The notes under the pieces: model-generated
Seen by the model: the letters and a program-made list of their open reading frames with translations, nothing else
What the model was told of the DNA's origin: nothing
Database searches by the model: none
Virus record (IMG/VR): IMGVR_UViG_3300027631_000129
Span: 1-24,489 of that record
DNA: 24,489 bases
Direction: 5' to 3' (one strand)
DNA from: a virus
Shown here: in pieces, positions 2,348 through 17,209 of the stretch
Numbering within the stretch: position 1 is the stretch's first letter
How the letters are laid out: the number at the start of each line of letters is the position of its first letter
Made by a program: the position numbers and the translations under genes

Positions 2348-3060
2348 TTTATTCCTCTTAAATAATCGCCCACAGGGCTGTTCATAATGTATTCTTTATA
2401 TAATATAGTATTTCCTTCACTTGTCAAGTGTCTTGTTTCATCATAATATTTCATTATATCACCACGGGATTGCTCTAACCAGGATATGAAGTTTGTGTTG
2501 CCTAAATTTCCAGCGCTGGTGTTGCTGAAAGAAAAATGATAAAAATGATTAAAATAATTATCATATAGTTCCAATGTAGAGGAAAAGAGATCAAAATATT
2601 CAGTAGCAAAATTTTTAAACGTGCCATCATCATTAATTTGATATTCAGCATGCTGACTTTTCAGAACAGTGCCTAGATTGTTATACAAGGATGAAACTTC
2701 TTGCAACTTTGCAGCAGTATCAAACATAAGAGGTATTGCCATATTGGCTCTTGCAATATCATATGACATCTGAATATAATTTTCCGATACTGGGAAGGCG
2801 ACCATTTTTCTATTAGAACTAAATCCCTCTAGCGGCATTGACCATCTGCTTATACCAGTATGTTGCACGATTACACAATCATATTCTAATTTATTGGCTA
2901 CAATATATTTCAACACAAAATCAAAGTAGACGGCGCCGTGTCCACTAACGGCATAATTGTCTACGTGTACGTTGTGGTTACGGGCTATTTGTATTGCCCA
3001 AATATCATCGCAGCTATGATGATTACTGTGACTACATCCTATTACTGCGATTCGTTTCAT
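2344..3060 (-). CDS. SGNH/GDSL hydrolase-like protein A
   Basis: 238 aa. The N-terminal strand ends in IGCSHSN (nucleophile-position Ser10, SGNH block I-like). It is followed by VSGHG around residue 40 (glycine block) and, near the end, DETRHLTSEGN, which places Asp207 and His211 as the D-x-x-H block V. These enzymes deacylate or, in some branches, transfer acyl groups on lipids and glycans. The central block with the catalytic-fold Asn is not obvious, so activity is uncertain. The gene starts with an ATGA overlap on the Fe-S carrier gene. Two other SGNH-like genes in the window (5228-6199 and 8129-8863) share the same layout but little sequence. Confidence 0.6.
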   Translation of the reverse strand: MKRIAVIGCSHSNHHSCDDIWAIQIARNHNVHVDNYAVSGHGAVYFDFVLKYIVANKLEYDCVIVQHTGISRWSMPLEGFSSNRKMVAFPVSENYIQMSYDIARANMAIPLMFDTAAKLQEVSSLYNNLGTVLKSQHAEYQINDDGTFKNFATEYFDLFSSTLELYDNYFNHFYHFSFSNTSAGNLGNTNFISWLEQSRGDIMKYYDETRHLTSEGNTILYKEYIMNSPVGDYLRGIK

Positions 3061-3431
3061 TCTGGAAGTTTGAAGCTTTCTTGGTTGGCTGCGACTGCAT
3101 CCATGTCAAAATTAACACTTTCTCCACAACCGCACCCTGCTGCTGCCTGCGGATTGTTTATCTCTAGTGTAGTACCAAACACTCCTTTGTTAAGGATAAG
3201 TTCCATGCCAAATAGGTACATAAGGCTATAACCATCAAGTACAAAAGTACCACCGTTACTTAGGGTAATAACCTCGTCTGCCATGTCATCAATTTGTTCC
3301 TCTGTAATCAAATCCCAAACATATTTGAAGCCAGCACACCCGCCGCCAGCAACGCTTAGTTTGGGTATCTTGCCTTCAATATCCTGAATACCTTTTAAAT
3401 GCATTTCTGCTTCTGGACTAATTTTAATCAT
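3057..3431 (-). CDS. A-type iron-sulfur cluster carrier (IscA/ErpA/SufA family)
   Basis: 124 aa, the normal family size. The three cluster-binding cysteines are present: C32 in GGGCAGF, and C100 and C102 in AGCGCGESVNF. Members receive Fe-S clusters from a scaffold and deliver them to apo-proteins. The start is the ATG at 3431, which forms an ATGA overlap with the APRT stop and has GGGGAGG about 10 bases upstream; the longer frame beginning at 3452 lacks family match. With the ferredoxin and the FTR1-like permease four genes upstream, it forms an iron-centred block. IscA, ErpA and SufA cannot be told apart from the sequence alone. Confidence 0.92.
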   Translation of the reverse strand: MIKISPEAEMHLKGIQDIEGKIPKLSVAGGGCAGFKYVWDLITEEQIDDMADEVITLSNGGTFVLDGYSLMYLFGMELILNKGVFGTTLEINNPQAAAGCGCGESVNFDMDAVAANQESFKLPE

Positions 3432-3964
3432 TGTAATATATCCTCCCCGCACTCTAAGTGCATATTATCTAATTCAATACTATTTAAGTACTTTAAATTA
3501 ATAACTGCTGTTCCGCCAACAACAGTGGCGCCTGTTTGCTCTACTAGTCGCTTTGTTGCTATCATGCTACCGCCTGTGGCAATAAGATCGTCAGCAATAA
3601 GCACACGGCTTGTATGCCCTAAGATGCCCTCTTGTAGCGTTATCGTGTCAGTGCTGTACTCTGTGTTATAACTTTCAGTTAACAGCTTTCCAGGATACTT
3701 GCTGCCAGCTTTGCGTACCATTACAAATGGTTTTAGCATTTCACTGGCCAGTGCTTGCCCCACAACAAAGCCACGACTTTCAATACCAACAATGTGTGTG
3801 ATGTGTCCAAACAAACTACCGTATTCCATATTACTGGCCATTTGTTCTACGATACATCCCCACATTTCGCTAGCAAACAAACTGTTCATGTCGTAAAAGT
3901 TTACGCCAGTTACTGGATAGTCAGGCACTGTTCTAATATATTGTGTTGGTTTATACTTATTCAT
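3428..3964 (-). CDS. apt: Adenine phosphoribosyltransferase
   Basis: 178 aa from the ATG at 3964, the usual length of APRT. It would convert adenine and PRPP to AMP. Visible motifs are the N-terminal IRTVPDYPVTGVNFYDM (residues 10-26; typical APRT reads I-R-x-x-P-D-F-P-x-x-G-I-x-F-x-D), IESRGFVVG (61-69), the RKAGSKYPG flexible-loop region (84-92) and the PRPP-binding loop VLIADDLIATGGSM (121-134). GGAG lies 8 bases before the start, and the gene overlaps the preceding ORF by 8 bases. It probably salvages adenine from degraded host nucleic acid into the phage nucleotide pool. It sits oddly inside a block of iron-related genes. Confidence 0.93.
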   Translation of the reverse strand: MNKYKPTQYIRTVPDYPVTGVNFYDMNSLFASEMWGCIVEQMASNMEYGSLFGHITHIVGIESRGFVVGQALASEMLKPFVMVRKAGSKYPGKLLTESYNTEYSTDTITLQEGILGHTSRVLIADDLIATGGSMIATKRLVEQTGATVVGGTAVINLKYLNSIELDNMHLECGEDILQ

Positions 3965-4235
3965 CAATTGTCTCCACATGAATTCCCCGTACCCACTCGT
4001 ACCATTCCATAGCACGTTTTTTTGCTTCTACGTGTTCAGGGTCGCTTGCCCAGTCTGCTACATCTGCTTTACTGCGCCAAGTGCTAACAGTAATTTCAAC
4101 ATCGCCAATTTCTTCGCTCTCAATACTGATAAATCCAGGATGATTTGTGCCTAGTTCACGAATACGTTTACTCATGTCCTTGTATTCGCTATTGAAGTCT
4201 TTGACTTTGGCGATGAAGAAGACTTTTACAGCCAA
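3957..4235 (-). CDS. ABM-fold (antibiotic biosynthesis monooxygenase-like) protein
   Basis: About 92 aa if it begins at the TTG at 4235. The core resembles the dimeric alpha-beta barrel ABM family: a KVFFIAKVK strand, the LGTNHPGFISIESEE segment, VEITVSTWRSKADVADWASD (strand, then helix) and PEHVEAKKRAMEWYEWV. The family includes cofactor-free monooxygenases such as YgiN and the heme-degrading IsdG proteins. The IsdG heme-ligand His and partner residues cannot be assigned with confidence. The start is uncertain: upstream ATGs would give an N-terminus read out of the permease gene. Its place between an iron permease and Fe-S genes makes a redox or heme role attractive, but this is inference. 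Confidence 0.68.
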   Translation of the reverse strand: MAVKVFFIAKVKDFNSEYKDMSKRIRELGTNHPGFISIESEEIGDVEITVSTWRSKADVADWASDPEHVEAKKRAMEWYEWVRGIHVETIDE

Positions 4236-4762
4236 TGTAGATGCTCTAATGCTTCGTAGCCAAACCATAGAGCAAGTGCCAAGTATGCCCAGTGTCCCCA
4301 AGTAAAAATAAACTTGTTAACTGTTTTAACGGTTCTACCCACAAAGAAAGCGACCACTGCAACAAGTGCAGCCAAGCCTGCTGCTAGCCAGCTTGCGTGT
4401 TCGTTTAGCAACAGCGCACTAAAGATCTCAAAACTTTCACGTGCATATACAGTTAGCACTGTTACAAAGATTACAATCTCTTTACTAAGATGTTTGATTT
4501 CATTAACGTGTTCTGCAACATGGGCTGCCATGTCTTCGCCACGCAAGAACAAATAAAACAACATAGCACTAAGGATAGCATACCCTAGCCATTCGTAGTC
4601 TTCAATAACTTCATGCAATGCAACACTCGCAACGTAGCCAGCCGCTAGACCAATCGCCCCGTATAGATATAGACGCATTGGATTAGACAGTCTAGTTAGC
4701 AGTAGAGTAATAAGTGCAATCTCTAGACACTCAATTAGTGTAATTGTAAAACTTGCTAGCAT
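4226..4762 (-). CDS. FTR1/EfeU-like iron permease, short form
   Basis: 178 aa with six predicted membrane helices (about 1-25, 31-53, 59-73, 95-119, 123-145 and 150-172). It follows the EfeU/FTR1 pattern. Helix 1 has IECLE (10-14) where the family has REGLE, and helix 4 has RESFE (108-112) where the family has the second REGLE. The last helix, FIFTWGHWAYLALALWFGYE, is close in pattern to the sixth helix of EfeU. These Glu pairs carry iron in FTR1. It is shorter than EfeU (about 276 aa) and lacks the seventh helix, and the first motif has lost its Arg. Ferredoxin lies upstream (2 bases between genes), and AGGGAG precedes the ATG. Confidence 0.68.
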   Translation of the reverse strand: MLASFTITLIECLEIALITLLLTRLSNPMRLYLYGAIGLAAGYVASVALHEVIEDYEWLGYAILSAMLFYLFLRGEDMAAHVAEHVNEIKHLSKEIVIFVTVLTVYARESFEIFSALLLNEHASWLAAGLAALVAVVAFFVGRTVKTVNKFIFTWGHWAYLALALWFGYEALEHLHWL

Positions 4763-4764
4763 GA

Positions 4765-5115
4765 TTAATCTCCCTGTCCTGGCGCTTCGCTTAGGTGTTC
4801 TAGTTTACTACCACCCGTATATCCTTTCGCTGGGTTCCAGGAGTCAGCATCTGGTAGTGAATTACGCTGTTGTGTAATCACTGGCCACATGGCGCTGTAC
4901 TTAGCATTAAGCTCAACCCAGCGTTTACCTTCTTCACCAGTGTCTGGAAGAATAGCACCTGCTGGGCATTCTGGTTCACAGACCCCGCAGTCAATACATT
5001 CATCAGGGTTGATTACTAGTGTATTCTCCCCTTCATAAAAACAGTCAACGGGGCAGACAGCCACGCAGTCCGTATACTTACATTTAATACAATCATCTGT
5101 TACTACAAATGTCAT
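4765..5115 (-). CDS. fdxA: FdxA-type 7Fe ferredoxin
   Basis: 116 aa. It carries nine cysteines in the arrangement of 3Fe-4S/4Fe-4S ferredoxins: [17 protein letters not shown] (C9, C12, C17, C21, C25) and [11 protein letters not shown] (C40, C43, C46, C50). The following [15 protein letters not shown] and the DADSW segment match the C-terminal extension of FdxA from alphaproteobacteria. It would carry electrons in the cytoplasm. AAGGA precedes the ATG. It opens the coupled gene run that continues to the left edge. Phage ferredoxins are known, but they are mostly the plant-type 2Fe-2S kind in cyanophages; this bacterial 7Fe type is less usual and probably came from a host. Confidence 0.93.
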
Positions 5116-5227
5116 TTTAGTTCATCCTTTACATGTGTTTATATTTTATTTGCTAGCCAGATATGAAATTTATTATTCCTGTGGCTGCATTCGCATAAAG
5201 TCCGCGTTATCTTTAACCAGATCGTTG

Positions 5228-6199
5228 TCAGATATTCATGACATCATGGATAATTTTATTAGCGACAAACTCGTGCATGACTTCGTTCTGGTGACCACAA
5301 TCACAGTTAAAATCTGCAAATTGTTGTCCAGCAGATTTGCATGATCTTTCAAAATGCTTGTGTGCTGATCCAGATAGTGATTTTACTTCAGTATCAAAAA
5401 CATCAGTGACCTGTTTAATTGCACTACGCACTACTTTAAAATCATCAGTAGGATCATTAAACTGTGCATGCTCATCCCAGCAGAACCAATTGAACGGAAT
5501 CTGATTCCAACGCCAAATAGCATTCATTGTTTTGATAAAATTGTAATCTTTGATGAATGGCAACATTGAAATATTTTCATAATTTATGAAATTATCCAGC
5601 ACATCCATAACTACATCATACATACCAGCAGCCGGAGTATCAATAATATCTGGCAGCATATCAAGCAGTAACTGGTATTGTCGTTTTTTATCCTGCCGTT
5701 TGAAAGAAGTTGGCAATCTTACCAGCAATTTGTCAGTAATGGTGGTATGCCCTACTAATCCGCCATCTTCTGGATTAGTAACTGTTTTACTAGGAATACT
5801 ATAGCAATTGGTTAATTGTGGAACGAATTCTGCACGACGAAACACTCCAAAATCGCCCAGCAAATCTCGACTCATCCTAGTGGTACCTTCAGCAACCCGT
5901 AGCTCACAGATAACACGCTTGCAGCGTTCACGAGCACCAGGTACATCTAGAAAATCAATCATCTGTTGTACAATTGTGTCATTATCATTGCCTGGCATGC
6001 TAGCATTAAACACTGGTAACCCGAGTGCAACTCCTACTCGTTCAGCCCAGATATGCTCACGGGAGATAGCTTGGCTATCTCCACGCATGCAAACACCGCT
6101 AGTGTGACTGGTACCGAACGCTGCAATAAAATCACCGTCTGGGAGATACTGCGCGAGTTCAGACAACTTTTCTTCACGTGTTTTGAACTTTAGTCTCAT
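5228..6199 (-). CDS. SGNH/GDSL hydrolase-like protein B
   Basis: 323 aa. FIAAFGTSHTSGV (residues 24-36) puts a Ser in the SGNH block I position. SMPGNDNDTIVQQMIDFLD, downstream, looks like the Gly/Asn block, and a C-terminal CDCGHQNEVMHEFVANKI gives a D-x-x-H-like block V followed by the usual helix. This layout is common among uncharacterised SGNH-like proteins of marine phages. The substrate is unknown; acyl removal or transfer on host or phage glycans is one possibility. It starts with an ATGA overlap on the QueD-like gene. A 112-base gap separates it from ferredoxin. Confidence 0.55.
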   Translation of the reverse strand: MRLKFKTREEKLSELAQYLPDGDFIAAFGTSHTSGVCMRGDSQAISREHIWAERVGVALGLPVFNASMPGNDNDTIVQQMIDFLDVPGARERCKRVICELRVAEGTTRMSRDLLGDFGVFRRAEFVPQLTNCYSIPSKTVTNPEDGGLVGHTTITDKLLVRLPTSFKRQDKKRQYQLLLDMLPDIIDTPAAGMYDVVMDVLDNFINYENISMLPFIKDYNFIKTMNAIWRWNQIPFNWFCWDEHAQFNDPTDDFKVVRSAIKQVTDVFDTEVKSLSGSAHKHFERSCKSAGQQFADFNCDCGHQNEVMHEFVANKIIHDVMNI

Positions 6200-6702
6200 G
6201 CAAATAGGTCTTCATTCCATTCACGGTGGCCTTCTCTGTACGCCATGTTAGCTTGTGTTTCACGTACTTCTACACGGAAGCACCAAAGCCTATCTGCTTC
6301 TGATTGTCCCAGCATATCTGGAATATAAACTCCATTTACAAATTTGTATAGCTGATCAGAAAGTCCTTCACAACCTAGCTTGGGCAACACAGTTAGTTTT
6401 GCTAGCTTCCGGGCCTGAAGTTCTTTGTAAATGTCTAATTCTGGATCATCTTCTGCCACAAGCAATGTGTGATCAAATTGATCTTCCAGCATCTTTTTTA
6501 ATTCTCGTAGTCCACCATAATCCATTGCCCAGTTACGAGCATCTAAATCATTTGTTCCAAAATAGAACTTCATGCTGAACGCATAACCATGGATAGTGTT
6601 ACAATGCGAATCTGCTCGCCACTGCCTGTATGCACATGGAAAAGCATCGACGTATTCTTTTGTACTTACATATTTGTAAGTAATGGGCTGTACTGTTGTC
6701 AT
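6196..6702 (-). CDS. queD: QueD-like 6-carboxytetrahydropterin/6-pyruvoyl-tetrahydropterin synthase homolog
   Basis: 168 aa from the ATG at 6702, which has AGAGG about 8 bases upstream. T-fold landmarks are present: the catalytic Cys in DSHCNTIHGYAF (C34), the WAMDYGGLRELKKML segment (58-72) matching D-F-x-x-L-K, the catalytic Asp-His in FDHTLLV (D77, H78) and a substrate Glu in VEVRETQ (E148). QueD makes 6-carboxy-tetrahydropterin on the queuosine/preQ0 route, which some phages use to modify DNA with 7-deazaguanines. Two of the three zinc ligands look replaced by Tyr (Y25 and Y40, where His is normal), so zinc binding or substrate may differ. No other preQ0 gene is seen in the window. Confidence 0.82.
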   Translation of the reverse strand: MTTVQPITYKYVSTKEYVDAFPCAYRQWRADSHCNTIHGYAFSMKFYFGTNDLDARNWAMDYGGLRELKKMLEDQFDHTLLVAEDDPELDIYKELQARKLAKLTVLPKLGCEGLSDQLYKFVNGVYIPDMLGQSEADRLWCFRVEVRETQANMAYREGHREWNEDLFA

Positions 6703-6728
6703 TCTATTACCTCTTGACAGGAGCGGAA

Positions 6729-6736
6729 TATTTATA
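6729..6736 (-). promoter_or_regulatory. T4-type late promoter TATAAATA before queD
   Basis: The minus strand reads exactly TATAAATA, the T4 late promoter consensus recognised by gp55-type sigma. It lies 27 bases before the QueD-like ATG, a normal leader length. It sits downstream of the sigma70-type promoter at 6770-6798, giving the gene both early and late expression. Confidence 0.6.
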
Positions 6737-6769
6737 GAGGGTCGATCCGTTTGAAGACCTCTTGTCATC

Positions 6770-6798
6770 ATATTATATTGAATATGGTAGGTTGTCAA
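6770..6798 (-). promoter_or_regulatory. Sigma70-type promoter for queD/SGNH operon
   Basis: TTGACA (6798-6793), a 17-base spacer and TAATAT (6775-6770) on the minus strand, about 70 bases before the QueD-like start. It is a near-perfect host-type promoter, typical of T4-type early genes. Confidence 0.72.
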
Positions 6799-6818: not shown

Positions 6819-6834
6819 TTTAAATGAGGATAAC

Positions 6835-7482
6835 ATGGAAGAAGTAACGGCACAAAGTATATTTCAATTTGGAAACCAAGTCCGGATGAATCCGACAGTT
6901 AACGTAAATAGACTGTTGGAAGATCTAAAACAGTTTGATGATAAGTGGCATCAATACAACGAGTTTAAACACTGGATACCTCGCCAAGGATTGTGTATAC
7001 TTAACGAAGATGGCGTCAACAAACCTGGCCCAGCTATTAGTAGTCTAATAGAGTGGAATAACATAAATGGAACAAAATGGAATGAAAGTGATTTCGTAGC
7101 GCCTACTCCAGTGTATCATGCGTGTACAGACTTACAAGAATTGTTAGATCCTATGTTACCATGGATTAATCGCACACATATATTAAAAGTGCCACCGGGA
7201 GGATATTTCCCTCCGCATCGCGATAGTCAAAAATTAAAACAAAAAACGTTGAGACTTATTATGCCATTGCAAAATACAGAAGCGCCATGGTTTCGTTTTA
7301 TGATTGAAGATAAAACACTTAATTGGAATAACGGTAGCCTATATGCTATTAATACTACTCTTGAACATACTCTATTCAATGCATATGCAAGCCCTGATAG
7401 AGACAGTTTGTGGCTTGTTATTAATGCTAATATTTGCTGGGATATGTATGTATATCTGTCCAGTAACTTATCTATTCAATAA
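6835..7482 (+). CDS. 2OG-Fe(II) oxygenase (aspartyl/asparaginyl hydroxylase-like)
   Basis: 215 aa, the only plus-strand gene. The double-stranded beta-helix iron site is visible as H128-x-D130 in FPPHRDSQ and H178 in LEHTLFNA, with R189 in a position to bind 2-oxoglutarate. ILKVPPGGYFPPHRD and TLRLIMPLQN are typical of this oxygenase group, which hydroxylates protein or small-molecule substrates using Fe(II), O2 and 2-oxoglutarate. The start is the ATG at 6835 with GAGGA 5 bases upstream, not the longer frame from 6751. Its 3' end overlaps the convergent gene by 15 bases. Such oxygenases are abundant in marine T4-type phages; their substrates are mostly unknown. Confidence 0.8.
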   Translation: MEEVTAQSIFQFGNQVRMNPTVNVNRLLEDLKQFDDKWHQYNEFKHWIPRQGLCILNEDGVNKPGPAISSLIEWNNINGTKWNESDFVAPTPVYHACTDLQELLDPMLPWINRTHILKVPPGGYFPPHRDSQKLKQKTLRLIMPLQNTEAPWFRFMIEDKTLNWNNGSLYAINTTLEHTLFNAYASPDRDSLWLVINANICWDMYVYLSSNLSIQ

Positions 7483-12553: not shown

Positions 12554-12582
12554 ACAATAAAGCAATACGTCTTGATTGTCAA
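12554..12582 (-). promoter_or_regulatory. Sigma70-type promoter with shared spacer core
   Basis: TTGACA (12582-12577), 17 bases and TATTGT (12559-12554), with an A/T-rich stretch upstream resembling an UP element. The spacer contains CAAGACGTATTG, related to the other early promoters here. TTGACAAT and ATTGTCAA form an inverted repeat across the promoter (12551-12558 and 12575-12582). Confidence 0.7.
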
Positions 12583-13012: not shown

Positions 13013-13041
13013 AATATAACACCAAAGTGTCTTGATGTCAA
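13013..13041 (-). promoter_or_regulatory. Sigma70-type promoter with shared spacer core
   Basis: TTGACA (13041-13036), 17 bases and TATATT (13018-13013), preceding the 122-aa gene. CTTGA-CA-TCAAG is an inverted repeat over the -35. The spacer core CAAGACACTTTGGTGT is shared with 16818-16846. Confidence 0.75.
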
Positions 13042-13102: not shown

Positions 13103-13126
13103 AGACCCAGTGTTGCCACTGGGTCT
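13103..13126 (-). terminator. Hairpin terminator after the 73-aa gene
   Basis: A 10-bp perfect stem (AGACCCAGTG with CACTGGGTCT) and a 4-base loop are followed on the minus strand by TTTCTGTTT. It begins about 24 bases after the stop of the gene at 13150-13371 and is the clearest terminator in the window. Confidence 0.8.
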
Positions 13127-13720: not shown

Positions 13721-13951
13721 CTACACCTCATCAAATCGCACTATTTCTTCTTCCCATTCATTAATGGTAGGGTTCCAGATGCGACGAGTCCGGACCAGCT
13801 TATCTGCAATCATCTGATTAATAGTAGTGGAAATTATTGCTTCGACAAGGGTCCGGCGGATCATTGCGCCCTTCCAATATCCCATGCCAAACATACTGAG
13901 CCCGAGAAGAACGCCGACATACCCATTTCCATAAAAAAATGACAAATCCAT
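13721..13951 (-). CDS. Hypothetical membrane-anchored protein, 76 aa
   Basis: The N-terminus holds one likely membrane segment (about 9-27, YVGVLLGLSMFGMGYWKGA). A helix follows (TLVEAIISTTINQMIADKL), then a polar end (IWNPTINEWEEEIVRFDEV). The soluble part would probably face the cytoplasm. Its ATG overlaps the stop of the 94-aa gene upstream (TAATG), so the two are coupled. No family is recognised. Confidence 0.65.
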   Translation of the reverse strand: MDLSFFYGNGYVGVLLGLSMFGMGYWKGAMIRRTLVEAIISTTINQMIADKLVRTRRIWNPTINEWEEEIVRFDEV

Positions 13952-14235
13952 TAGCCTACTACCTTATCAATTACGTTGACAAGATCTTCAGCAAACACCC
14001 CATTTACACGACTATCATACTTGATTTCTGCCTTACGAACACGAAAGAAGTCTACATCGTAGAGGTCACGACCTTCATCATACTTGACATACACATGTCC
14101 TTTCCAACGGGCCATGCCTGATGTCTTGAACTTGAGACCGTCACCCATGTTAACCATATCCTTGGTTCCCCATGCACCAAGCGCCCAGGCGTCTAACGCA
14201 CGAATTTGGTCTCGGATAATAGTAGCAGTGTTCAT
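13951..14235 (-). CDS. Hypothetical protein, 94 aa, driven by repeat cassette promoter
   Basis: Unknown soluble protein. A helix IIRDQIRALDAWALGAWG is followed by an apparent beta sheet (DGLKFKTSGMARWKGHVYVK, then YDVDFFRVRKAEIKYD) and a final helix. Its leader is the 72-bp repeat (14231-14302) carrying TTGACA-17-TATATT and AAAGGAG 6 bases before the ATG, identical to the leader of the gene at 16843-17142. The proteins themselves are not obviously related. Confidence 0.72.
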   Translation of the reverse strand: MNTATIIRDQIRALDAWALGAWGTKDMVNMGDGLKFKTSGMARWKGHVYVKYDEGRDLYDVDFFRVRKAEIKYDSRVNGVFAEDLVNVIDKVVG

Positions 14236-14302
14236 AGCATATCTCCTTTGCTTACAATACTAATATAAGCAATGTGTCTTGGTTTGTCAAGTGTTATTTT
14301 GA
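14231..14302 (-). repeat. 72-bp perfect repeat, copy 1 (promoter and ribosome-site cassette)
   Basis: Identical over 72 bases to 17138-17209. The element holds the end of the upstream gene, a TTGACA-17-TATATT promoter, an inverted repeat (TTGCTTA and TAAGCAA, arms at 14266-14272 and 14248-14254) around the -10 and start point, AAAGGAG and the ATG with the next two bases. Confidence 0.95.
14262..14290 (-). promoter_or_regulatory. Sigma70-type promoter in repeat copy 1
   Basis: TTGACA (14290-14285), a 17-base spacer with CAAGACACATTGCT, and TATATT (14267-14262). The TGA stop of the 255-aa gene lies within the -35. Confidence 0.78.
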
Positions 14303-15054
14303 ATTTTTTTTGGATCAAACATAGAGAGTACACTGGTGACTTCGCTGACGTAAAGGCTACGATGAATACGTTTTGGTTTAGCATAGGTGTCAATATTCAT
14401 TACACCATTATCTTTGTCCAAAATGTAATCTACAATAGCTTGTGTATTGTAGTCATATTTCTTATTGAATGTCCAGAACATCAGGCAGTTGTCTTCACGA
14501 CGGAACACATATACATCTTTATTTGATTGTGTAGTTTTATGAGCATAATGCTCTACGTATTGTAGTTTACCTGTATATTGTGTATCTGAACGATCCACTG
14601 TCTTATACAACGCAGCATAATCATCATAACGCTTGTTGATTTGTGTGAAATGACGCAAGTTGGAAACCAGTCTGCGCTCATCAACTGCAATTCGTTCATC
14701 AGGTCGTGCCACTAGCTGTGCAACTGTCGCTGCCCAGTTATCGCCACCTTTACGAATAGGCCGTCGAATTTCTTCTCCCATGAGCTTGCGATTCATCATT
14801 TCAAACTGCCAGTAAAGAATAATTTCATTGGCATTTTTCAGATGTTGGCTGTTAATTTCACGTGCGTCATATTCTCTTCGACGTAGGAGATCAATAAACT
14901 CAACAGGTTGACTACCCTCATCAACAAAGAACTCTGTTAGTACAAGTGCTTCGCGAAAGGTAATGTCAGACAACTCTGTTCGTTTACCATCCTCGATAGA
15001 TGGCGATCGATCGACAAAATGCCAGTCAGCAGTCACAATCGAGACAGTATTCAT
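14287..15054 (-). CDS. Hypothetical protein, 255 aa
   Basis: No family is recognised. The protein is soluble and charged: DRSPSIEDGKRTELSDITFR and a DLLRRREYDAREINSQHL segment suggest helices in the first half, and the second half (GKLQYVEHYAH, KDVYVFRREDNCLMFWTFNK) suggests a sheet. Its start overlaps the upstream gene (ATGA). Its TGA stop lies inside the -35 element of the next gene's promoter, so the coding end and the repeat cassette are fused. Confidence 0.75.
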   Translation of the reverse strand: MNTVSIVTADWHFVDRSPSIEDGKRTELSDITFREALVLTEFFVDEGSQPVEFIDLLRRREYDAREINSQHLKNANEIILYWQFEMMNRKLMGEEIRRPIRKGGDNWAATVAQLVARPDERIAVDERRLVSNLRHFTQINKRYDDYAALYKTVDRSDTQYTGKLQYVEHYAHKTTQSNKDVYVFRREDNCLMFWTFNKKYDYNTQAIVDYILDKDNGVMNIDTYAKPKRIHRSLYVSEVTSVLSMFDPKKIQNNT

Positions 15055-15350
15055 ATTTTTCCTACTCCATGTCTTTTTATAGTATCTTTTTCCATAACAT
15101 AGGTTACCCAGTTTTCAGCGGCACGTTCTACAAATGTCAATGATTTATCTGGGTAACTAAGACTGCCAACATATCGCCTATTTTCAATAAAATCTATAGT
15201 GTAGATAGACACTTGTTCACTAACGGCAACGGCACGTGTACTGTTGACATTTGATTTGTAACTAGTGGTTGAAGTCCTATCAAATATAACAGCTTCTCGA
15301 TTGTCGTCATCACTGCTATACTGTGCTATAACTTCACGTGTGTGCATCAT
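15051..15350 (-). CDS. Hypothetical protein, 99 aa
   Basis: Unknown soluble protein that appears beta-rich (EAVIFDRTSTTSYKS, AVAVSEQVSIYTIDFIENRR, a YPDKSLTFVERAAENWVTYV segment). The first of two adjacent ATGs overlaps the kinase stop (ATGATG containing TGA). The end overlaps the 255-aa gene by 4 bases. It sits in a coupled set of nucleotide kinase, this gene and the 255-aa gene. Confidence 0.72.
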   Translation of the reverse strand: MMHTREVIAQYSSDDDNREAVIFDRTSTTSYKSNVNSTRAVAVSEQVSIYTIDFIENRRYVGSLSYPDKSLTFVERAAENWVTYVMEKDTIKRHGVGKI

Positions 15351-15868
15351 TTGATGCTATAAGGATCGATGCGCGAGATCAGCTGATTGACATTGAATTC
15401 TAAGTCAGTCAAATTTCCATTGTTATCAATAGTGAAATCAGACATCCACTGTTCAAGACTCATTGAGGATTTTGATTCCGGCGGCAAGTGGTCACTGCGG
15501 TCAACCCAGATCGCGTGATCAAACACGCCACTGTTTTGCATAGCATGAAATTCTTTCTTGTTGCGAAGTCCGCAATAGATATCATGTGCATTGAAAATCT
15601 CACGCCCTAGGCGTGATGGGTCAGGTACATTATAATTGCAGATAGCATCATACCATTCTGCTCTGTGATTATGCCTGTCAGCGTAACACTCTTCTTCATT
15701 AGCATATCCATATTTGTCCTTCAAATCGTTAAAGATAAACAGTTTACTACAAAAGCGGCTGCTGCTTTCAAAACTGTATCCATAATTGTCAGCCAACATT
15801 TCGCACACAGTATCTTTGCCGTGCCGCCCGTGTCCAATCACGAGAAATTTTAGTTTCATCGTAGTCAT
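15347..15868 (-). CDS. P-loop kinase, dNMP kinase (T4 gp1)-like
   Basis: 173 aa. The Walker A loop is VIGHGRHGKDTVCEML (GHGRHGKDT, residues 12-20) right at the N-terminus, as in T4 gp1 and the nucleoside monophosphate kinases. A later HDIYCGLRNKKEF and AIWVDRSDH look like the base/phosphate region and the Walker B-type strand before D. T4 gp1 phosphorylates dGMP, dTMP and hydroxymethyl-dCMP; the substrate here cannot be read from the sequence. The C-terminal tail (NGNLTDLEFNVNQLI) has the look of this family. The start is a TAATG overlap; an ATG three codons later is also possible. Confidence 0.7.
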   Translation of the reverse strand: MTTMKLKFLVIGHGRHGKDTVCEMLADNYGYSFESSSRFCSKLFIFNDLKDKYGYANEEECYADRHNHRAEWYDAICNYNVPDPSRLGREIFNAHDIYCGLRNKKEFHAMQNSGVFDHAIWVDRSDHLPPESKSSMSLEQWMSDFTIDNNGNLTDLEFNVNQLISRIDPYSIK

Positions 15869-16128
15869 TAATTACTCAACCGTTCCATCATGCGCTGTTC
15901 GTCAGCTACTTCTCGCTCACGACGCATTTTAGCGAAAGCATAGCAACTGTAGAAGGCATATCCAATTACAATCGCTGCAATCACAACAGCGATCCCGTGT
16001 TCAGAGTTTACACGCCCTGCAACTTCCATGACAACGAACACTGAAGTAACCCATGCCAATAGTTTAGTAATGTTAACAAATGTGTACCACGCAGTGTTGC
16101 GAGTTAGTTTAAAAATAGTGCTTTGCAT
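15868..16128 (-). CDS. Two-helix membrane protein, 86 aa
   Basis: From the ATG at 16128 (GAGG 5 bases before) the protein has an aromatic first segment (TAWYTFVNITKLLAWVTSVF), a second helix (IAVVIAAIVIGYAFYSCYAF) and a charged cytoplasmic-type tail (KMRREREVADEQRMMERL). The longer frame to 16149 uses GTG inside the lipoprotein gene and lacks a ribosome site. It forms a cassette with a lipoprotein and a 29-aa membrane peptide just upstream. No family is recognised. Confidence 0.66.
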   Translation of the reverse strand: MQSTIFKLTRNTAWYTFVNITKLLAWVTSVFVVMEVAGRVNSEHGIAVVIAAIVIGYAFYSCYAFAKMRREREVADEQRMMERLSN

Positions 16129-16135
16129 ATCAACC

Positions 16136-16339
16136 TCATTCAAATTCACATACTACATCTTCGTAGTATAGGCAGTCATCAACATATTCTGGATCGTAGT
16201 TGTCCAGATCGTAAATACTTTCAAGATATTGTTGGTGAGCATGAAAGTCACGTTCGGCTTCAAGATGATCTTGTAGCGGAGCATCAAAATTAGAACACGC
16301 ACTCAGCAAACCAACACAAGCAATGATAGCATATTTCAT
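16136..16339 (-). CDS. Small acidic lipoprotein, 67 aa
   Basis: MKYAIIACVGLLSACSNFDA shows a lipoprotein signal with lipobox LSAC and Cys15. The mature part is very acidic and Tyr/Asp-rich (SIYDLDNYDPEYVDDCLYYE), with two further cysteines. Such small envelope lipoproteins in phages include spanins and superinfection-exclusion or receptor-masking proteins; this one matches none clearly. Its ATG comes 1 base after the stop of the 29-aa ORF. It differs from the other lipoprotein (10482-10724) in charge and sequence. Confidence 0.72.
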   Translation of the reverse strand: MKYAIIACVGLLSACSNFDAPLQDHLEAERDFHAHQQYLESIYDLDNYDPEYVDDCLYYEDVVCEFE

Positions 16340-16340
16340 C

Positions 16341-16430
16341 TTATTTGTCTTTCAGAAAAAAGGTTTCATACACGGCGGTAACTGCCACAATTACTATAAA
16401 AAATAACGCACATCCAACAAATGTACCCAT
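16341..16430 (-). CDS. 29-aa single-helix membrane peptide
   Basis: An ATG at 16430 starts a short frame ending in TAA at 16341. The peptide is a single hydrophobic helix (GTFVGCALFFIVIVAVTAVY) with a polar end (ETFFLKDK). AAGGAG stands 8 bases before the ATG, which is the best Shine-Dalgarno in the neighbourhood. It abuts the lipoprotein gene. Small one-helix membrane peptides are typical of phage early regions and of some pinholin-type proteins; the function is unknown. Confidence 0.58.
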   Translation of the reverse strand: MGTFVGCALFFIVIVAVTAVYETFFLKDK

Positions 16431-16441
16431 ATCAGTTCTCC

Positions 16442-16792
16442 TTACAAATAGTGTGGACCAGTCCACATAATGTTATAACCGCCAAACACATTACCACGTG
16501 CTGCGTTCTTGGCAGGAGTTGACCTACCTGCTGGTTTTAAAATATCACCACGCTTGAACTTGCCATCATCATTCTTAGCAATAAAACCCCAAACGCTGCC
16601 GCCCTGGATAATCTTGATATACTTATTGCCTTCAGTAATTTTAAATCCATTTTCAAAATTTGAAATCATACTACGCGTAGTAGGGCCCATTTCGTCACTG
16701 CCGGAGCGGACGCGGCCCTTGTAATCGCGGTAATCAGTCTTAATAGCTTCAACAAGAACTTCAATTGCAGTATTCATATCATTCAGTAGCAT
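16442..16792 (-). CDS. Hypothetical protein, 116 aa
   Basis: Unknown soluble basic protein. The N-terminal helix is TAIEVLVEAIKTDYRDYKG, the middle is beta-like (NGFKITEGNKYIKIIQGGSV then WGFIAKND), and the end is Gly/Arg-rich (FKRGDILKPAGRSTPAKNAA). GGAG precedes the ATG. A promoter at 16818-16846 drives it. It probably leads a short operon with the 29-aa peptide, the lipoprotein and the two-helix membrane protein. Confidence 0.72.
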   Translation of the reverse strand: MLLNDMNTAIEVLVEAIKTDYRDYKGRVRSGSDEMGPTTRSMISNFENGFKITEGNKYIKIIQGGSVWGFIAKNDDGKFKRGDILKPAGRSTPAKNAARGNVFGGYNIMWTGPHYL

Positions 16793-16817
16793 GTCTATCT
16801 CCGTTGCTTACATATAT

Positions 16818-16846
16818 AATCTAACACCAATGTGTCTTGATGTCAA
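16818..16846 (-). promoter_or_regulatory. Sigma70-type promoter with shared spacer core
   Basis: TTGACA (16846-16841), 17 bases and TAGATT (16823-16818), before the 116-aa gene. It is nearly the same as the promoter at 13013-13041 (TCAAGACACATTGGTGT spacer). The stop of the 99-aa gene is part of the -35. Confidence 0.72.
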
Positions 16847-17142
16847 GCAAATTCTTTCATTTTTTCTGAAATAATTTGCATAAATGTCTTGGCTACATTT
16901 TCTTCAGCGATATCGGAAACAAGCGTCGTTGCCGTCGAATGTTTTAGTCCAGTGCTAATAGTATAGTTACCGTCTGGCTGTTGGTCGATATCATAATGAG
17001 TTGCATTGCTAGTGTATGCAAACATCATAATCTGCAACCCAGTTTTAGTGCTGTAGGACGAAGTCCGTCCTGGATACATTGGATTATGATGATCAAAGCC
17101 CTGAGATTTAATCAATAAATTAATCTTGGTTCCTACATTCAT
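16843..17142 (-). CDS. Hypothetical protein, 99 aa, driven by repeat cassette promoter
   Basis: Unknown soluble protein with Ser, Thr and His-rich stretches (GFDHHNPMYPGRTSSYSTKT), a strand HYDIDQQPDGNYTISTG and a C-terminal helix VAKTFMQIISEKMKEF. Its promoter and ribosome site belong to the second copy of the 72-bp repeat (17138-17209). Its own stop TGA is part of the -35 element of the next promoter (16841-16846). Confidence 0.72.
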   Translation of the reverse strand: MNVGTKINLLIKSQGFDHHNPMYPGRTSSYSTKTGLQIMMFAYTSNATHYDIDQQPDGNYTISTGLKHSTATTLVSDIAEENVAKTFMQIISEKMKEFA

Positions 17143-17209
17143 AGCATATCTCCTTTGCTTACAATACTAATATAAGCAATGTGTCTTGGTTTGTCAAGTG
17201 TTATTTTGA
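17138..17209 (-). repeat. 72-bp perfect repeat, copy 2 (promoter and ribosome-site cassette)
   Basis: Second copy of the 14231-14302 element, in front of the 99-aa gene at 16843-17142. The distal part overlaps the end of the sulfotransferase-like gene (stop at 17201), read in a different frame from copy 1. Confidence 0.95.
17169..17197 (-). promoter_or_regulatory. Sigma70-type promoter in repeat copy 2
   Basis: TTGACA (17197-17192), a 17-base spacer and TATATT (17174-17169), identical to the promoter in copy 1. Confidence 0.78.

Follow-up and report, generated by a model that had tools for sequence, protein, structure and literature searches.

A 72-bp repeat as putative early-promoter module of uncultivated T4-like phages, with an operator-like site in its spacer

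The stretch of DNA analysed here (the window; positions 1-24,489 of IMG/VR record IMGVR_UViG_3300027631_000129, 24.5 kb and probably a fragment) carries two identical copies of a 72-bp sequence. We consider it, with a probability of roughly 0.7, to be the module of early promoter and leader that is standard in an uncultivated clade of aquatic T4-like phages; its copies would be held by constraint and spread by recombination, and its spacer would be bound by a regulator. Repeated host-type early promoters in T4-like phages are of an already known kind; the new part is apparently the operator-like site in the spacer.

Two identical copies in front of unrelated genes

Both copies lie on the minus strand, as do all promoter features described below. 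Copy A (14231..14302) comprises the end of an A-rich, UP-element-like flank (14291..14310, delimited by sequence and column conservation), a promoter, a leader, a ribosome-binding site and the ATG of a 94-aa gene (13951..14235; PHROG 9437), whose family occurs in 8 of the phage populations compared. Copy B (17138..17209) precedes a 99-aa gene (16843..17142). The two copies are 100% identical across 72 bp and 98% identical across 80 bp. The core promoter TTGACA-N17-TATATT, assigned from its hexamers and their spacing, is located at 14262..14290 in copy A and at 17169..17197 in copy B, with the -35 hexamer TTGACA at 14290-14285 and 17197-17192 and, 17 nt from it, the -10 hexamer TATATT at 14267-14262 and 17174-17169. 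An AGGAG follows 3′ of a dyad around the -10 and is in turn followed by the ATG at 14235 or 17142, respectively. When the window was searched with the 21-mer TTGACANNNCAAGACACATTG allowing up to 3 mismatches, only two places were found, namely copies A and B, and two such matches occurred in 0 of 100 dinucleotide shuffles, which excludes chance as the source of the two copies.

The upstream part of each copy covers a gene end, in different frames. In copy A the gene codes for 255 aa (...CAA AAT AAC ACT TGA) and its stop codon falls within the -35 hexamer; in copy B it codes for 243 aa (...TCA AAA TAA). Pairwise comparison revealed no similarity between the 94-aa and 99-aa proteins downstream, nor between the 255-aa and 243-aa proteins upstream. 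An earlier note on this DNA, made from the sequence alone, had described an identical cassette with promoter, arms around the -10, ribosome site and ATG that drives dissimilar genes and whose distal part overlaps two unrelated gene ends in different frames, and all of this was borne out. Rfam and tRNA scans of the 24.5-kb window gave no match.

The earlier note had also allowed for the second copy being an assembly artefact. That the identity stems from misassembly or an artefactual duplication is extremely improbable, since the copies are flanked differently within one assembly and an independent contig, G001, carries promoters of slightly different sequence at both corresponding gene junctions; copy B is therefore genuine.

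A T4-type phage and its uncultivated relatives

The window encodes an 894-aa DNA polymerase of the T4 type (PHROG 262, 2.6e-188), which shares ~46% identity with the polymerases of the nearest isolate phages and 65-90% with those of 80 viral contigs among the matches listed. No capsid gene was identified within the 24.5 kb; the promoter-carrying relatives G021 and G026 encode Gp23 (2.6e-86 and 1.9e-85), and together with the polymerase this supports the assignment to T4-type phages. Among 50,697 isolate phages, none was related over the repeat region at the nucleotide level. Several relatives proved to be fragments of the same population, namely G002, G005, G014 and G016 (99.7-100%) and, in a second case, G009 and G010 (99.9%).

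Some features of the gene content were recorded along the way. A 202-aa ORF (465-1073) with the motif GRGSSV matches the phage DNA polymerase PHROGs 11127 and 405 and resembles part of a DnaE-type polymerase, which this phage would have in addition to its T4-type polymerase. Positions 3057-6798 hold a cluster of metabolic-type genes, including IscA/HesB-like (judged by eye), ferredoxin and QueD-like genes, and a MazG-like gene is found at 1940-2347. The gene at 6834-7482 is the sole plus-strand gene among those called and has the same orientation in G005.

Copies of the module in related phages

The earlier note had proposed a search for further copies in relatives, and these are numerous. The 48-nt core has an exact match in one further viral contig. 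When 3 positions are left free, the 21-mer is found in ~16 viral contigs, where it precedes differing genes. Searches of whole records revealed as many as 12 copies in 159 kb; in other contigs the maximum was 9. A nucleotide profile built from the repeat detected 137 sites in related viral contigs, 100 of them non-redundant and up to 14 in a single contig (159 kb), but 0 on shuffled sequence. An ATG starting an ORF of at least 40 aa was present 42-75 nt 3′ of 95 of the 100 non-redundant sites, compared with 26% of random positions. The proteins encoded downstream fall into 51 families and include T4-type RNA ligase, PNKP phosphatase, HNH and AAA proteins, which suits early genes. Copy number, position in front of ORFs and the 51 families point to the clade's early promoter of the host-sigma70 type. 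The promoter pattern had no match in 84,980 bacterial and archaeal genomes, and BLAST queries of promoter length gave only chance-level matches. A 12-mer match in a paper on Pseudomonas phage pf16 was discarded, as it concerns a lone clamp-gene promoter lacking the palindrome.

Judged by the consensus, host RNA polymerase with the housekeeping sigma factor would recognise TTGACA-N17-TATATT, aided by the A-rich flank. The resulting transcripts would begin with a leader of ~20 nt that carries a GGAG ribosome site, and the small early genes behind the module could thereby be expressed at once after infection. Early regulons of uncultured phages would thus become callable from contigs alone by means of a readable promoter signature.

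Within the collected copies, TTGAC is fully conserved, the spacer CCAAG, the -10, GTAAGC and GGAG are highly conserved, and the region 5′ of the -35 is A-rich; the conservation value of TTGC is not independent, because TTGC was required for entry into the count. The seven bases after the -10 read AGTATTG in 8 of 10 copies of the close clade and are variable elsewhere, which points to recent copying, and the ATATGCT gap between ribosome site and ATG is likewise common to the close clade, its counterpart varying freely elsewhere. These two features argue against purifying selection on a strict promoter consensus as the sole cause of the A/B identity, with neither copying nor gene conversion, as do the variant promoters with other spacers in the same window. 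Such selection would explain why distant relatives keep the core positions before genes that are unrelated; as a complete account we consider it unlikely. The variants, assigned by sequence and, for the first two, by the profile, precede a 116-aa gene (TTGACATCAAGACACATTGGTGTTAGATT, 16818..16846), a 122-aa gene (13013..13041) and a 110-aa gene (TTGACAATCAAGACGTATTGCTTTATTGT, 12554..12582).

Two copies from one genome resemble each other no more than copies taken from different genomes do. Concerted evolution within genomes is thereby ruled out as a general rule, and the identity of A and B is not an instance of general within-genome homogenisation; it is read more simply as a recent common origin within the close clade. 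Copies A and B would be recent copies of one clade-level sequence, identical because this sequence is under functional constraint and because ordinary homologous recombination, a frequent process in these phages, spreads or homogenises it.

An operator-like element in the spacer

Between the hexamers lies the element CCAAGACACATTGC (14269..14282 in copy A, 17176..17189 in copy B), a degenerate version of GYAAG-N4-CTTRC. The form in the window is CCAAG-N5-TTGC, in which the symmetry CAA-N6-TTG remains. We counted AAG-N4-CTT behind TTGACA in contigs picked by polB similarity and not by promoter, and found it 22 times at offset 9 and 10 times at offset 11, against an expectation of 0.18 per offset. 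Unselected sigma70-like promoters of the polB relatives have spacers such as GTAAGGCATCTTGC and CCAAGATATCTTGC, and these spacers share 5-mers in excess of shuffled spacers. When all viral contigs were scanned with TTGACA-N3-AAG-N4-CTT-N4-TATAAT, 76 of the 95 non-redundant sites among the matches listed were followed by an ORF, and ACAT and ACGT were the commonest inner N4 sequences. The same palindrome scan of bacterial genomes yielded, among the matches listed, unconnected sites with random inner bases and is uninformative. A few kb of one viral contig contain several GYAAG-N4-CTTRC promoters; ahead of the -35 they have a conserved aaagg, and their leaders contain TATAAGTTAA.

A half-swap test for pairing within the spacer gave no covariation signal, which rules out a hairpin inside the spacer. 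A symmetric site of ~14 bp whose position moves by 1-3 nt at a constant hexamer spacing of 17 resembles the operator of a dimeric regulator, and from this we infer a putative phage regulator, with GYAAGACRTCTTRC as the candidate sequence for binding. Besides the polymerase, the promoters would thus be recognised by a further sequence-specific protein, in all likelihood a dimeric regulator encoded by the phage. Its site would be GYAAG-N4-CTTRC in the wider clade and CCAAG-N5-TTGC in the window, and it would shut off the whole promoter set together later in infection. The further-reaching proposal that this large aquatic clade runs its early genes as one regulon, in which such a regulator switches a dozen or more near-identical host-type promoters together, unlike AsiA/MotA of T4, is tentative, and we place it a little below an even chance. 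Searches for the AsiA and RegB families gave no match in the clade, nor in the controls, and so carry no information; inspection by eye of the conserved small proteins revealed no obvious DNA-binding signature. If it exists, the regulator would be an unrecognised one acting on early promoters of T4-like phages.

Promoters with an operator in the spacer occur in temperate phages and bacteria. The element described here is like these in that a symmetric site between the -35 and the -10 shifts by 1-3 nt at a hexamer spacing of 17, and unlike them in that large T4-like phages have it at many of their early promoters. The early promoters of T4 and T4-like phages are used by host polymerase and repeated before early and novel ORFs, with a GTTTAC-like -35, an A-rich stretch at -40 and a conserved -10 (PMC1524935). 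The clade shares with them the repeated host-type promoters, the A-rich UP-like stretch and the conserved -10, but its -35 is TTGACA instead of GTTTAC-like, and it has a partly palindromic spacer element and a -10 dyad that set it apart from T4 early promoters as described there. A text search with partial coverage of the literature found no earlier report of a GYAAG-N4-CTTRC spacer motif, which is thus apparently undescribed.

The dyad around the -10

The -10 is flanked by the dyad TTGCTTA-N11-TAAGCAA (14248..14272 in copy A, with arms at 14272-14266 and 14254-14248; 17155..17179 in copy B, with arms at 17179-17173 and 17161-17155), the 3′ arm of which is located in the predicted mRNA leader. 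Pairing of the arms in fixed register exceeded that after within-genome swaps (531 versus 514 ± 4.5, reached in 0 of 1000), and so did the longest stem in comparison with within-genome half swaps (5.61 versus 5.34 ± 0.09, 1 of 500). The hairpin arms described in the earlier note are hence kept across copies beyond the half-swap expectation; descent of promoter subfamilies can contribute to this signal.

Translation is known to be damped by a hairpin of this kind in read-through RNA for some T4 late genes. The dyad might likewise act in RNA, with a hairpin in read-through transcripts that abuts the ribosome site and damps translation, while transcripts started at the promoter would be free of the 5′ arm and hence freely translated. 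The excess of pairing over swaps fits this idea, as do stems of 9-12 bp that extend into the ribosome site in some copies. Yet the variants at 16841, 13036 and 12582 in the window have no good stem, the predicted fold of the leader is unremarkable, and subfamily descent can mimic covariation, so that we regard a role of the dyad in RNA as rather improbable.

Recombination and gene shuffling at the copies

The earlier note had likened the repeats to the mobile early-promoter cassettes of T4-type phages and suggested that they promote gene shuffling; as a check it named whether gene gain or loss is bounded by copies. T4-type PeSL cassettes are reportedly composites of promoter and terminator, a definition going back to Arbiol in 2010 and Comeau in 2014. 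PeSL stands for promoter early stem-loop, an element described as mediating gene shuffling in T4-like phages (PMC4503421). Copies A and B are like PeSLs in that a T4-like genome has several copies of an early promoter, each between variable genes that are unrelated, and in that some genes were gained or lost at the copies. Under the definition given above, they differ in having no stem-loop terminator, none being present within 150 nt upstream of either copy, and in that breakpoints are not generally enriched at the copies. The likeness therefore extends to the cassette of promoter and ribosome site before unrelated genes and stops short of terminator and mobility: the copies work like PeSLs but are not demonstrated to be PeSLs.

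The relatives are mosaics with near-identical tracts on backgrounds of 70-88%. One end of a 766-bp tract common to the window and G001 (14242..15007; 99.2%, with flanks of ~78%) lies inside copy A, in its ribosome site. The 99-aa gene, present in G001, was gained or lost exactly between two promoters, as G005 lacks it and has a single promoter between the same neighbours. In place of the 255-aa gene and copy A, G005 contains a 61-aa gene between two promoters that share GTAAGCAACGGAGATATGCTATGA, and the 94-aa gene retains a promoter in altered neighbourhoods. These cases would fit a PeSL-type mobile cassette whose copies serve as homology patches for swapping, adding and removing early genes and whose conservation was shaped by this role. 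A terminator-like hairpin within 150 nt upstream, found for 10 of 99 family promoters and 22 of 529 control gene starts (P = 0.02), would also be in accordance with it.

A synteny test over 24,318 gene-junction comparisons argues in the opposite direction. At locally collinear junctions the frequency of breaks was 0.63 with a promoter and 0.63 without, i.e., there was no enrichment; when junctions were restricted to gaps ≥40 nt, the values were 0.67 versus 0.60 in all comparisons (Fisher P = 0.04 on observations that are not independent) and 0.62 versus 0.58 in locally collinear ones. Most ends of recombination tracts lie kilobases from promoters, neither 72-bp copy has a terminator, and copies within a genome resemble each other no more than copies between genomes. 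We therefore conclude that recombination can use the copies, and a special role is not evident. Gain or loss bounded by copies held for individual cases but not as a general enrichment at promoters, and the repeats are weakly supported as drivers of gene shuffling; that a mobile-cassette role shaped their conservation we consider doubtful. Promoter copies, gene gains and losses and tracts together make this clade a clean system for studying repeated promoters and genome shuffling.

Among the promoters of the window, a PeSL-like composite layout is confined to the variant at 13041, just upstream of which a strong, bidirectional terminator-like hairpin (13103..13126) is located between a 73-aa gene and the promoter. 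A similar hairpin is kept at the G005 counterpart. Two further sets of tracts were observed. At 16136-16370 a second tract common with G001 (95.8% on a background of ~75%) adjoins a replaced gene (15868-16149) at a place where there is no promoter, and at 3960-5117, a long way from any of the family's promoters, tracts of 96-98% common with G005 cover the ferredoxin gene and the gene next to it.
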